Assembly: GCF_900176005.1 (NCBI RefSeq)
Contig: NZ_LT838272.1
Coordinates: forward strand, 2,065,587-2,129,586
Direction: 5' to 3'
Source of the DNA: Thermanaeromonas toyohensis ToBE
GTDB taxonomy: Bacteria > Bacillota > DSM-521 > Neomoorellales > Neomoorellaceae
DNA length: 64,000 bases
Part shown: positions 7,376-11,869 of the stretch, in pieces
How the letters are laid out: every line of letters starts with the position of its first letter
Position numbering within the stretch: position 1 is the first letter of the stretch
Made by a program: the position numbers and the translations under genes
Notes under the pieces: generated by a model
What the model was told of the DNA's origin: nothing
Database searches by the model: none
What the model saw: the letters and a program-made list of their open reading frames with translations, nothing else

Positions 7376-9260
7376 GTGTGCCCGGCATGGGCGTTGGCTA
7401 TAGGGTGGAAGTCCCGAACGACGAAGGTAGCAGTAGTCGTTAGCTTAAGGCAAGGGTGTCCGCCGTGAGGCGGAATCCGAAGGAAGCCGGCGGCAAACCT
7501 CCGGTCCGACGAACAGGAACCGCATAGGAGGCTAACAGCAGTTGGATGAGCTTGCGAACCAAAGCGAAGTCCTTGCTACCGAAGGCTGCTGAGAGTATAT
7601 GCGGCGGATGGATGGAGGGAAAGTCAACGCTCTTACCCGGGGAGGCCTGCCAGGTATGCCAGGTAACCTGGTAACCTGCACTGGAAGGTGCGGTTGAACT
7701 GGCAGGAGTCAGCAGAGGTCATAGTACCTCTCTCAGACGTCAGAGGGAGGGAAGGACCGAACATAAGGACAGGGAGGCACTTTATGAGTTCGAGAGAAGG
7801 GCGAAGACAGCCGAAAATCCTGGAAGGGAGCTACCCACGGGAGGAAGCGGTGAATCTGCGGGGGACCGTGGGAGTGCCTAGTCCTTCTCCGGCACGAGTA
7901 GGGGAGCCACCCTGCGGGGACGGTACCGACCTGATGGAGAAGGTGGTAGAGCGGAGCAACATGCTTCGCGCCCTGCGCCGGGTAGAGAGCAACAAAGGAG
8001 CGGCTGGTGTAGACGGCATGGAGATAAAATCCCTTCGACCATACCTCAAGGAGCACTGGCTGAGGATAAGGGAAGAGTTGCTCAAGGGAACCTATAGGCC
8101 GCAGCCGGTACGGAGGGTCGAAATCCCGAAACCCGACGGAGGCGTAAGGCTATTAGGGATACCCACGGTGCTGGACCGCCTGATCCAACAGGCCCTTTTA
8201 CAAGCGTTAACGCCGATTTTTGACCCGGGTTTCTCAGAACATAGTTTTGGCTTTAGGCCGGGCAGGAACGCCCACCAGGCGGTAAAAGAAGCCCAGGGGT
8301 ATATTCGAGAGGGATACAGGTATGTGGTGGACCTGGACTTAGAGAAATTCTTTGACCGGGTAAACCACGACATTCTCATGGCCAGGGTAGCCCGGAAAGT
8401 TAAGGACAAGAGAGTACTGAAGCTTATCCGTGCTTACCTTAAGGCAGGGGTCATGGTGGGTGGTATCTGTATAACCTCAGAGGAAGGAACGCCGCAAGGA
8501 GGGCCGTTAAGCCCACTTTTAGCCAACATAATCCTTGACGATCTGGACAAGGAGTTAGAGAGACGGGGTCACAAATTTGTCCGTTATGCGGATGACTGCA
8601 ACATATACGTAAAGAGCCAAAGGGCAGGACTTCGCGTAATAGAGAGCGTGAAAAGGTTTGTAGAGGGGCGACTAAAGCTCAAAGTCAATATGGAGAAGAG
8701 TGCAGTAGACCGGCCATGGAGAAGGAAATTTTTAGGCTTCTCCTTCACCTGGGAACGGGAACCGAGGATAAGGCTAGCGCCCAAGACGATAAAGCGGTTT
8801 AAGGATAGGATACGGCAGATAACGAGGCGGAACTGGAGTATAGAGCTTAAGCAGCGCATAGAGCTTTTGAACACTTATCTTAAGGGATGGATAGGGTACT
8901 TTCGGCTAATAGACACGAGAAGCACTCTGGAAGCGTTGGATGAATGGATAAGGCGACGGCTCAGGATGTGTCTGTTAAAACAATGGAGGAAACCCCGCAC
9001 CAGGAGACGTAACTTAGTAGCGCTAGGGATACCTGAAGACTGGGCGAGCCTTATAAGCGAGTCCCGGAAAGGGTACTGGCGGCTGGCGAACACTCCCCAA
9101 GTGAATAAGGCCCTTGGCCTTAAATATTGGAAAGACCAAGGGCTGACGAGCTTAGTTGAACGGTACTTAGAACTTCGTAGCGCCTTATGAACCGCCGTAT
9201 ACCGAACGGTACGTACGGTGGTGTGGGGGGACGGGGGTTAGCCACCCCCTCCTACCCGAT
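7376..9260 (+). mobile_element. Group IIC (bacterial class C) intron
   Basis: The 5' end GTGTGCCCGGCATGGG and much of domain I closely resemble the Oceanobacillus iheyensis group IIC ribozyme. Domain V is seen at about 9188-9222 as the CCGCCGTATACC ... GGTACGTACGG hairpin. Domain VI is a CCCCC hairpin ending CTACCCGAT at 9260. The maturase lies in domain IV. The element sits right after a terminator-like hairpin, the hallmark target of this class. All ribozyme parts and the maturase look intact, so it may still be active. It is inserted antisense to the gene ending at 9265, without breaking it. Confidence 0.92.
7784..9190 (+). CDS. ltrA: Group IIC intron reverse transcriptase/maturase
   Basis: A 468-residue LtrA-type protein. 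Reverse transcriptase motifs are seen in order: LDLEKFFDRVNHD, GTPQGGPLSPLLANI and the YADD catalytic box. They are followed by a maturase (X) domain with WIGYFRL. No HNH endonuclease follows, as expected for class C. The ATG at 7784 is chosen because AGGGAGG lies 8 bases upstream. An open frame reaching back to 7688 overlaps ribozyme domain III and is probably not translated. It helps splicing and copies the intron into new terminator hairpins. Confidence 0.93.
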   Translation: MSSREGRRQPKILEGSYPREEAVNLRGTVGVPSPSPARVGEPPCGDGTDLMEKVVERSNMLRALRRVESNKGAAGVDGMEIKSLRPYLKEHWLRIREELLKGTYRPQPVRRVEIPKPDGGVRLLGIPTVLDRLIQQALLQALTPIFDPGFSEHSFGFRPGRNAHQAVKEAQGYIREGYRYVVDLDLEKFFDRVNHDILMARVARKVKDKRVLKLIRAYLKAGVMVGGICITSEEGTPQGGPLSPLLANIILDDLDKELERRGHKFVRYADDCNIYVKSQRAGLRVIESVKRFVEGRLKLKVNMEKSAVDRPWRRKFLGFSFTWEREPRIRLAPKTIKRFKDRIRQITRRNWSIELKQRIELLNTYLKGWIGYFRLIDTRSTLEALDEWIRRRLRMCLLKQWRKPRTRRRNLVALGIPEDWASLISESRKGYWRLANTPQVNKALGLKYWKDQGLTSLVERYLELRSAL

Positions 9261-9264
9261 AAGA

Positions 9265-9486
9265 TTAATCTACAATATCTTCAGCCACCATTTCGTAATA
9301 CATTCGTTTTTGAAACTGATCATCATCAAAATCATTTATGCTACTTTGGTTTCCAGTTAAGCCGTATATTACTTTTACCAAATCAGCTTTATTTAATCTC
9401 CTACCTACTTCTTGTAACTCGCTTACTTTAGCTTCCTTTAATATTTGTAATAACAATTCAACTTTGTTTATCATATAAAGCTTCAT
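9265..9486 (-). CDS. Small protein of unknown function (73 aa)
   Basis: Not recognised. The product is 73 residues, predicted mostly helical and acidic at the C-terminus (NDFDDDQF ... VAEDIVD). A good ribosome site (GGGAGG, 7 bases before the ATG) and the 12-base gap after the P-loop protein gene indicate it is real and co-transcribed with it. The helical first half (VELLLQILKEAKVSELQEVGRRL) may pack as a small adaptor. The group II intron ends 4 bases past its stop codon. A partner role for the P-loop protein is a guess from position only. Confidence 0.7.
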   Translation of the reverse strand: MKLYMINKVELLLQILKEAKVSELQEVGRRLNKADLVKVIYGLTGNQSSINDFDDDQFQKRMYYEMVAEDIVD

Positions 9487-9498
9487 TTTGTTACCTCC

Positions 9499-11253
9499 CT
9501 ACTTGCGAGTAATGAACTCAAACAGAGCTCTAGCAGCAGCTTCCGGACCTTTAAGTTCATATCCTCGCAATCCTAGCTGCGTTCTAATTTGACCGATTCT
9601 TACATTTGTAGCTAGCATTTGGCTAAAGTATTTCCTTGCTAACGCATCGTGCTGCTCGCGTTTTTGAGGAGCGCCAAAGGGATTCGCAAAGTACGTATGA
9701 GTTAGTCCTTCTTCGTCTGTGGTACCTTTGGATAGTCTTGCCCCCTCGCTGAAGATTTCCAGAGCAGTTTCTATATCATTAAACAACTCGATATAAGGAT
9801 GCTGTTCATCAACGGGTTCATAGTTATTTGCATAAAGGAAAAAGTCTACAGGATAACCCGCCACGATTTCTTGGTATTTTGTTATAGGTATTACTAACCG
9901 GGCGTTCTTCTTATGAGGATTCATGAATATACTTCTATCTATCTCTTCATAGGCAAAGCCTGGAGATAGATCATCCAAGCGAACAAATGCTCCTATTTCT
10001 GTTCCGATTGCTATTACTTGACCTTGGTCATTTAACCTGAGCGATCCCATATCATCGAAAATTATGGTTAACTTTCGCATATAAATGTCAGCCAGAACTC
10101 GGAAGGCTTCCAGAGTTTCTGATTTCCCAGCTCCGCTATCTCCAACTAGGATTATGTTAGCGCTTTCGCCTGTACGCATAACAATTCGGGCCATAGCGCC
10201 GTGGACAGGAAGATATCCGCGGTCTATAGCAATAATGTTGTGTAAGGTTAAAGCCATTTTCTTAAAATAACCAAAGTAGTCTACGTCATCGGTACGCCCA
10301 ATAAACCCAAGCACTATACCCGATTTTTTGTCTTCAAAATAACACGTTTGTTTCTTGCCTAAAGCTTCAGGTTCTACCCCGAAAACTAAAATACCATCTG
10401 GTCTCCGCCTAAAGATTTCCCCAGGTTCAGCTAGTTCAAAAAGGTTCGATAAACTAGACCCTAAGGGTAGGTAACGCTTATGGAAATAGATAAATATAAC
10501 AAGATCTCCAACTTTAGCAGGATAACAGAGCCAATCGTTAGGTTTAAGGGTTACACGAAACAGCGGATTCTCGGGTACTGGGAGGAAAACTCCTTTACGA
10601 TAATTGCGCTTAGGGTAATAGACGAGTGGAGGTTCGATCACTACGAGCCGTATAAAAGGTATTTCTTGTAAGGGTTCGTATTCTGGAGCCGGAACGTCCC
10701 AAACAATCTTTTCAGCTAAGATCTCCACCCCTGCCCCGCAAGGTAGCTGGCGGTAGACTCGGGGAAGTTTATCCATTAGGTTGGCGCAGATTTGTCGGTA
10801 TGTTTCCAACACTAGATTCTTAAACCTCTCGCTTAACTTGATAAACTTTCTGTGGTCGGTTCTCGTTTCGCCCATTTGGTATTGACCGCCGTCTAAAATT
10901 AAGAAACGAGCATGTTTTCTCCAGAAGTTGTAAAGTCCTTCAATAAAATCATAAAGAAGGACAGGGTTCGCCAGCACCAGAGCATATTTAGGGTACCTTC
11001 TTACGATTTCGGTAGGGCGGTACTCCGTTAGCAACAACAGCAGATCAGAAAAGGAGTCTATGTCATAGTTATCTTGTACTGTACATTGAAAGGATTTAAG
11101 GATTTCCAACTCAGGTGCCTTGCGTTCTTCCAGTTGGCTTAAGAATTTACGTAGAAGGCATTTAAAAGGCTGACTTTTTAACATATCGGCTGCTGTCTCA
11201 CATGGAACTGGCCCCAGGATTATAATGTTACTTTCTTTTGCTTCCTCTCCCAT
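9499..11253 (-). CDS. PEPCK/HPr-kinase-like P-loop protein of unknown function
   Basis: A 584-residue protein. The C-terminal half has a P-loop GDSGAGKSE, then IIFDDMG (likely metal-binding acids), FVRLDDL and a conserved NPHKKNAR stretch. This order recalls the kinase fold shared by phosphoenolpyruvate carboxykinase and HPr kinase. The N-terminal 300 residues match nothing I know. The open frame continues upstream to 11466, but AAGGAGGGG just before the ATG at 11253 fixes the start, and the extra codons lie inside a structured leader RNA. It is co-transcribed with the 73-aa gene behind it. Substrate unknown; a nucleotide-dependent kinase or sensor is the most I can infer. Confidence 0.75.
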   Translation of the reverse strand: MGEEAKESNIIILGPVPCETAADMLKSQPFKCLLRKFLSQLEERKAPELEILKSFQCTVQDNYDIDSFSDLLLLLTEYRPTEIVRRYPKYALVLANPVLLYDFIEGLYNFWRKHARFLILDGGQYQMGETRTDHRKFIKLSERFKNLVLETYRQICANLMDKLPRVYRQLPCGAGVEILAEKIVWDVPAPEYEPLQEIPFIRLVVIEPPLVYYPKRNYRKGVFLPVPENPLFRVTLKPNDWLCYPAKVGDLVIFIYFHKRYLPLGSSLSNLFELAEPGEIFRRRPDGILVFGVEPEALGKKQTCYFEDKKSGIVLGFIGRTDDVDYFGYFKKMALTLHNIIAIDRGYLPVHGAMARIVMRTGESANIILVGDSGAGKSETLEAFRVLADIYMRKLTIIFDDMGSLRLNDQGQVIAIGTEIGAFVRLDDLSPGFAYEEIDRSIFMNPHKKNARLVIPITKYQEIVAGYPVDFFLYANNYEPVDEQHPYIELFNDIETALEIFSEGARLSKGTTDEEGLTHTYFANPFGAPQKREQHDALARKYFSQMLATNVRIGQIRTQLGLRGYELKGPEAAARALFEFITRK

Positions 11254-11275
11254 TGATAACCCCTCCTTATGGAAT

Positions 11276-11431
11276 AAAAAAAGGTCAACATGCCCGCCTT
11301 CTGTAGCTAAAGGCAAAGCTGTTGACCCGCTATCCGGTAGTTCTTCTGTTTCCAGACCAACTACCGGCAAGCAGACCTTTATGCTTGACGTTGCACCATC
11401 TCGGCGAACACCGAAAATGGTTCCCCGTCCC
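11276..11431 (-). promoter_or_regulatory. Structured leader RNA with terminator (possible riboswitch or attenuator)
   Basis: Between the promoter and the ribosome site of the P-loop protein gene the minus strand shows four hairpins in a row: AACACCG/CGGTGTT (11407-11437), CAAGCA/TGCTTG (11368-11387), a 9-bp stem CCGGTAGTT/AACTACCGG capped by TCTG-GAAA-CAGA (11334-11367), and an intrinsic terminator GGTCAACA/TGTTGACC followed by seven T (11276-11327). A terminator inside the leader, before the start codon, implies control by premature termination. It does not match the consensus of the riboswitch classes I can recall. Confidence 0.6.
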
Positions 11432-11437
11432 GGTGTT

Positions 11438-11466
11438 ATTATAACCGCTACATAGCAAAGGGGCAA
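11438..11466 (-). promoter_or_regulatory. Promoter of the P-loop protein gene
   Basis: TTGCCC (-35, 11461-11466) and a perfect TATAAT (-10, 11438-11443) are 17 bases apart on the minus strand. The predicted start is near 11431, giving a leader of about 178 bases. Confidence 0.65.
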
Positions 11467-11503: not shown

Positions 11504-11869
11504 TTAGCTAAACCTTGCCTCCAGGTTATCCGCTAAGGTGAAGACTATTATTCTTTCTCCAGTAATAGTACTGATATCGGTATGCAAACTTATTACTTTT
11601 TGACCAGTAATTTCTTCAATCATATCCTCTAATACGGACCTTAAGTTTTCTAATAACTGGGTCCTTACCCTTTTCACTAGAAGCTTACCTTCATGGGTTT
11701 GGGCAAGATGCTGTTCCGCTAGAGTTAATACTCCTTTTAGACGTACGTATATTTGATCTTCGAGAATAAAAGTCTTAACTTCTTGTGGACCTCTACCTAG
11801 ATATTCCTTTTCAAATTTCATTAAAGCTTTGCTGATTTCATCTTCCAATTGGCCTTTCTTGAGAACCAT
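11504..11869 (-). CDS. DUF2294 family protein
   Basis: A 121-residue protein with the DUF2294 pattern: GRGPQEVK near residue 25, then VRLKGVLTLAEQHL and a basic LVKRVRTQLL. The family is common in Firmicutes and cyanobacteria and has no proven function. Its stop lies 37 bases before the -35 box of the P-loop protein gene, on the same strand. The two may share a task, but the internal promoter argues they can be expressed apart. Confidence 0.8.
   Translation of the reverse strand: MVLKKGQLEDEISKALMKFEKEYLGRGPQEVKTFILEDQIYVRLKGVLTLAEQHLAQTHEGKLLVKRVRTQLLENLRSVLEDMIEEITGQKVISLHTDISTITGERIIVFTLADNLEARFS

Follow-up and report, generated by a model that had tools for sequence, protein, structure and literature searches.

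What decides whether the PEPCK-like gene of Thermanaeromonas toyohensis that starts at 11253 is transcribed? In the 64,000-nt stretch of DNA that we analysed (hereafter the window), the gene is preceded by a leader on the minus strand, running from 11466 to 11254, with about 178 nt from the promoter to the ATG at 11253. The leader is most likely an undescribed RNA switch outside Rfam, in which a choice between two hairpins decides transcription of the gene. Its parts and neighbours, as compared between the window, Moorella and G313, the last being a genome from a different family, are as follows.

11504..11869, minus strand: upstream neighbour MpsC (PF10057), adjoining the leader in Moorella too and divergent in G313
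11438..11466, minus strand: promoter TTGCCC-17-TATAAT, with the same TTGCNN-17-TATAAT ahead of the leader in Moorella and G313
11387..11429, minus strand: 5' hairpin P-a, with a GACG/CGTC stem, a purine-rich internal loop (GG/AA) and a variable upper hairpin
11378..11386, minus strand: linker from P-a to P1, AAGCAUAAA, from the three-lineage alignment
11370..11377, minus strand: P1 5' strand GGUCUGCU, base of the antiterminator, from folding and alignment
11334..11367, minus strand: Pb, a 9-bp stem, GG/AG internal loop, UCUG/CAGA inner stem and GAAA loop
11324..11331, minus strand: P1 3' strand AGCGGGUC, ending in the four bases GGUC, with which the terminator 5' arm begins
11276..11327, minus strand: intrinsic terminator GGUCAACA...UGUUGACC, then U7
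11260..11268, minus strand: Shine-Dalgarno sequence AAGGAGGGG
9499..11253, minus strand: first gene under the presumed control, encoding a 584-aa PEPCK-fold protein with an HprK-like Walker A motif, GDSGAGKSE
9265..9486, minus strand: second such gene, encoding a 73-aa protein with the C-terminus ...EDIVD

The promoter had been proposed in the initial annotation with its strand unstated; it is present at 11466..11438 on the minus strand. The form TTGCNN-17-TATAAT occurs a single time in the window, against 0.18 occurrences expected by chance, and transcription is expected to start near 11431. The leader strand folds at -89.4 kcal/mol, compared with -61.6 +/- 4.2 for shuffled sequences (z = -6.6; none of 200 shuffles is as low).

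Promoter, 5' hairpin and a single long, imperfect helix (P1-Pb) are common to the three lineages. Their consensus reads, in order: P-a ending in AACRUC; the linker; P1, GGUCYGCU/AGYRGGYY; a 2x2 loop; the Pb stem; GK/AG; UCU/AGA; and a variable loop. P-a is found separately in the window fold and in the Moorella fold. Its stem pairs 11429..11426 with 11390..11387 and is conserved across genera, the third pair being C-G, U-A or U-G depending on the lineage. The general layout of hairpins proposed earlier therefore stands, but not its choice of the first hairpin, as GACG/CGTC is the pairing kept across genera and the AACACCG/CGGTGTT alternative is not. The 9-bp stem with the inner GAAA hairpin (11367..11334), the terminator (11327..11283) and the seven U (11282..11276) are as first described. 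A role of the GAAA hairpin as a tertiary-contact element finds no such backing: the stem with its GAAA is there, but the loop is not conserved, being GAAA in the window, GUA in Moorella and a long insert in G313. The terminator hairpin has a computed energy of -22.6 kcal/mol in the window and -27.7 kcal/mol in Moorella, and the U7 tract stops 8 nt ahead of the Shine-Dalgarno sequence.

Base identity between the window and Moorella is about 71% in the leader and 71-72% in the neighbouring genes; the leader being no higher, the case rests on pairing and not on raw conservation. Non-coding DNA of these two genera is otherwise not expected to align at all. Over the three lineages, six pairs change on both sides with pairing kept, and 94% of the cells are paired; when the partners are slid by 1 to 3 columns, at most one double change appears and 48% of the cells are paired. 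Five of Pb's pairs are altered on both sides across the three lineages. Between the window and Moorella there are 4 double changes (permutation test, p about 0.001). At P1 position 57/102, the window has a U.G wobble and the two other lineages have C.A; U.G and C.A wobbles can share geometry. The covariation statistics are modest, as they come from three independent lineages only (five genomes), and these sequences also served to derive the structure. For Pb and P-a, however, the folds in the window and in Moorella were each predicted from one sequence by itself.

Three Moorella genomes (G008, G014 and G016) carry the leader ahead of their ortholog. A more diverged copy lies directly before the ortholog, and in the right orientation, in G313 (L118 3625..3474, minus strand), where it was detected at 30.4 bits (E about 1e-5) with a covariance model built from the window and Moorella only; it has the same promoter form, and the 5' arm of its terminator is again the P1 3' strand. 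The collection of homologous leaders suggested in the initial annotation thus exists, and its helices covary. Within the family, gene and leader occur in the same four genomes. A two-lineage model run on the 18 family genomes finds one copy in each leader genome and none before any other gene; likewise, searches of 398 phylum genomes with both covariance models place no copy ahead of a different gene. The three-sequence model gives no further copy in these 398 genomes, in 17 genomes of the class of G313 or near other homologs of the gene. A lack of conserved leader structure at homologous genes, which would have weighed against the original proposal, is not what Moorella and G313 show, but it is the situation of most distant homologs. 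Such a leader or terminator is missing from most homologous genes, among them some whose proteins are 57-63% identical.

Several other matches were set aside. The model also gave weak matches (17-24 bits) in G255, G346, G006 and G013, from which the conserved parts are missing, and plus-strand matches at the leader's own place (about 30 bits) are a palindromic echo of its hairpins. Matches of the pattern GGTCTGG..CAGAAG away from the gene in family genomes are due to chance or, in G011, to CRISPR repeats (L091 1100-1900 is a CRISPR array with the repeat GTTTCAATCCCTTCCAGGGATTTATGGGGTCTGGCAC); those of the same short pattern in viral contigs are due to chance. At two loci of the family f18 (L006 and L113), about 100 nt before the ortholog, we noticed another kind of leader hairpin, GGGGCGAG...ACTCCGACC...GGTCGGAGT...GGCCCC, which two species of one genus share downstream of a promoter-like TTGACT/TAAGAT. 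It does not match the covariance model and has no clear terminator, and was rejected as the same element; this gene family may thus have a second regulatory RNA.

As the P1 3' strand is also the terminator 5' strand, P1 and the terminator exclude each other in thermodynamic folding. Folding of partial transcripts gives the same course in all three lineages: the P1 base stays paired up to the synthesis of the terminator's 3' arm, whereupon the terminator displaces it. At 37 °C, the P1 base in Moorella and G313 is paired to near 0.6-1.0 before the terminator and 0 after it. In the window, at 37 °C, the paired fraction fluctuates between 0.02 and 0.8 with transcript length before the terminator and is about 0 afterwards; at 60 °C the pairing is weaker still. 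An alternative antiterminator, in which GUCAA of P-a pairs with the 3' arm of the terminator, is possible in the window and, judged by eye, is not kept in Moorella. Promoter, leader, terminator before the coding region and an exclusive alternative helix together make an intrinsic-terminator transcription attenuator, and all are found here, the exclusion by computation. This agrees with the attenuator-type layout first proposed.

In our view, this leader probably works in cis as a transcription attenuator specific to its gene, closed by default and opened by a signal that stabilises P1-Pb. RNA polymerase would start at about 11431 and make P-a, followed by the long imperfect helix P1-Pb. Left unheld, P1-Pb would lose its 3' strand to the terminator hairpin, and transcription would stop at U7, 8 nt short of the Shine-Dalgarno sequence. 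A metabolite or an RNA-binding protein could instead act on the conserved internal loops and the wobble pair of P1-Pb and so stabilise this helix; the base of the terminator could then not close, and the PEPCK-like gene and the small protein gene would be transcribed. Termination is the default predicted by folding, and whatever holds P1-Pb would switch the gene on. We infer termination in the cell and a signal acting in trans, and take the direction of control from an equilibrium folding calculation.

The same promoter and terminator could also delimit a stable RNA of about 155 nt. The terminator would then be constitutive, either producing a terminated small RNA that acts in trans or ending mpsC transcription, with the helices kept for that purpose. 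We regard this as unlikely: in the window and in Moorella there is no room for a second promoter between the terminator and the Shine-Dalgarno sequence, so the gene needs read-through, and all lineages retain the P1 strand that the terminator shares. Moreover, mpsC is divergent in G313, so the terminator there cannot serve it. Control by a translated leader peptide, with the position of the ribosome picking the hairpin, is highly improbable. Short frames do occur in the leader (MVQRQA in the window, for example), but none has a Shine-Dalgarno sequence, and neither frames nor peptides are common to the three leaders.

Which signal, then, would hold P1-Pb in a regulated attenuator? Rfam 15 offers no family for the window leader, either at a gathering score or at E values up to 5, and the Moorella and G313 leaders give chance matches only, far below gathering scores; the initial annotation, too, had recognised no familiar class in the leader. 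A literature search returned nothing on the leader or on DUF2294. It resembles transcription-attenuation riboswitches in that the terminator takes its 5' strand from the 3' strand of P1, the terminator comes just before the ribosome site, the promoter is its own and there is no leader peptide. It differs from them in matching no Rfam class, in being specific to one gene and confined to three lineages, and in having a conserved core that is mostly one helix. A small-molecule riboswitch outside Rfam, with P-a, the linker and P1-Pb forming a ligand pocket and binding stabilising P1, is a possibility that falls short of probable. The expression-platform layout, with the P1 strand common to the terminator, the conservation of the internal loops and linker, the single regulated gene and the fact that no protein partner was identified are consistent with it. 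However, riboswitch classes usually precede several genes in many genomes, whereas this leader precedes one gene in three lineages, and its conserved core is small, Pb being a nearly continuous helix. With more reserve still, we raise the idea of a new riboswitch class, for a ligand that has no known RNA sensor so far, which would turn on a PEPCK-fold enzyme and its small partner in anaerobic thermophiles.

An RNA-binding protein could equally hold the imperfect hairpin, as known antiterminator proteins do; we put this forward tentatively, and it appears about as likely as a small-molecule riboswitch. P1-Pb is one long hairpin with small internal loops that overlaps the terminator, the small protein co-occurs with the leader, and mpsC adjoins it in Moorella and G313. 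The partner could come from the same locus: the small protein, MpsC or, by autoregulation, the PEPCK-like protein itself, although none of them has a known RNA-binding domain. The RAT hairpins of BglG/SacY/LicT antiterminators are also imperfect hairpins with internal loops that overlap and compete with a terminator, but the controlled gene here is not a sugar PTS operon. The bglG-cis-reg family, whose cut-off is 80 bits, scores 16 on the Moorella terminator, which is no meaningful match. The CAT_RBD domain, the RNA-binding domain of LicT/BglG, is absent from G008, G014, G016 and G313 and is found in one protein of the window's genome; with four of the five leader genomes lacking it, BglG/LicT-type control is disfavoured.

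Targets of ANTAR proteins (AmiR/NasR/EutV) likewise consist of two hairpins, the second of which overlaps the terminator, and both of their loops carry A1 and G4 (PMC3369936). ANTAR-domain proteins are encoded in five of five leader genomes, a count that covers the leader-bearing genomes and is not specific. But the Pb loops are GAAA, GUA or a long insert, and in the folds of the three lineages the A1/G4 pattern appears in the loops of neither P-a nor Pb, which disfavours ANTAR-type recognition.

The gene downstream had been annotated as coding for an uncharacterised PEPCK/HPr-kinase-like protein, and structure prediction bears this out. The AlphaFold model of the 584-aa protein (pLDDT 89) has a Foldseek match to PEPCK at E 2.5e-16, and in a VIA comparison with PEPCK 2pc9 it reaches a Z of 24.0 over 352 residues, with an rmsd of 3.3. 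It has the PEPCK fold with a P-loop that characterises the PEPCK superfamily. At the level of families, no Pfam or NCBIfam entry scores above cut-off: for PF01293 the window protein reaches 10 bits against a gathering cut-off of 26.5, and the best E value among 37 members is 2.4e-4. The protein resembles PEPCK (PF01293) in its fold and in a P-loop plus KK / H / DD pattern that, by eye, is in line with the metal site; it differs in an identity of about 15-18% and in its Walker A motif GDSGAGKSE, which is closer to that of HPr kinase. The N-terminal ~180 residues lie outside the ATP-PEPCK match. Judged from the model, the protein is a relative of phosphoenolpyruvate carboxykinase by fold, with a putative enzyme activity.

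Its homologs occur in Moorella, other Bacillota, Nitrospirota, Nitrospinota, Armatimonadetes-type and Erysipelotrichaceae genomes. The window protein and 36 homologs share the strongly conserved motifs YFGYFKKM, VHGAM, GDSGAGKSE and FDDMGSL. The leader is thus an undescribed attenuator RNA with covariation support, attached to a PEPCK-fold family that lies outside Pfam and is spread over several phyla. Through it, the conditions of the protein's expression, and by way of these its function, become approachable; the signal, if found, would be the first clue to both.

In the window, Moorella and G313, the PEPCK-like gene is followed by that of a short protein with the C-terminus AEDIVD, GEDIVD or AEDLTD; at the other loci tested, no such protein follows it. 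The leader thus forms something like a module with the PEPCK-like gene, the small protein and mpsC. In L071, mpsC also precedes the PEPCK-like gene, without such a leader. In one Moorella genome (G014, L004 1234-1483) the small downstream protein is apparently frameshifted, its match being split over two frames. A remnant of the PEPCK-like gene, about its last 45 residues, is seen in G022 (L007 1380-1660), fused to the sequence found downstream of mpsC in G313 and followed by a short frame ending in FAEDLAD. In some Nitrospirota (L014 6717-8573 and L017 6719-8599), the protein of the next gene has a ferredoxin-like start, CGGKGVCGKC, and resembles corrinoid-protein reactivators. In the window, a group II intron (7459-9260, plus strand), with its reverse transcriptase at 7688-9190, is inserted just downstream of the 73-aa gene, separating it from the CooC-like and CO dehydrogenase genes.
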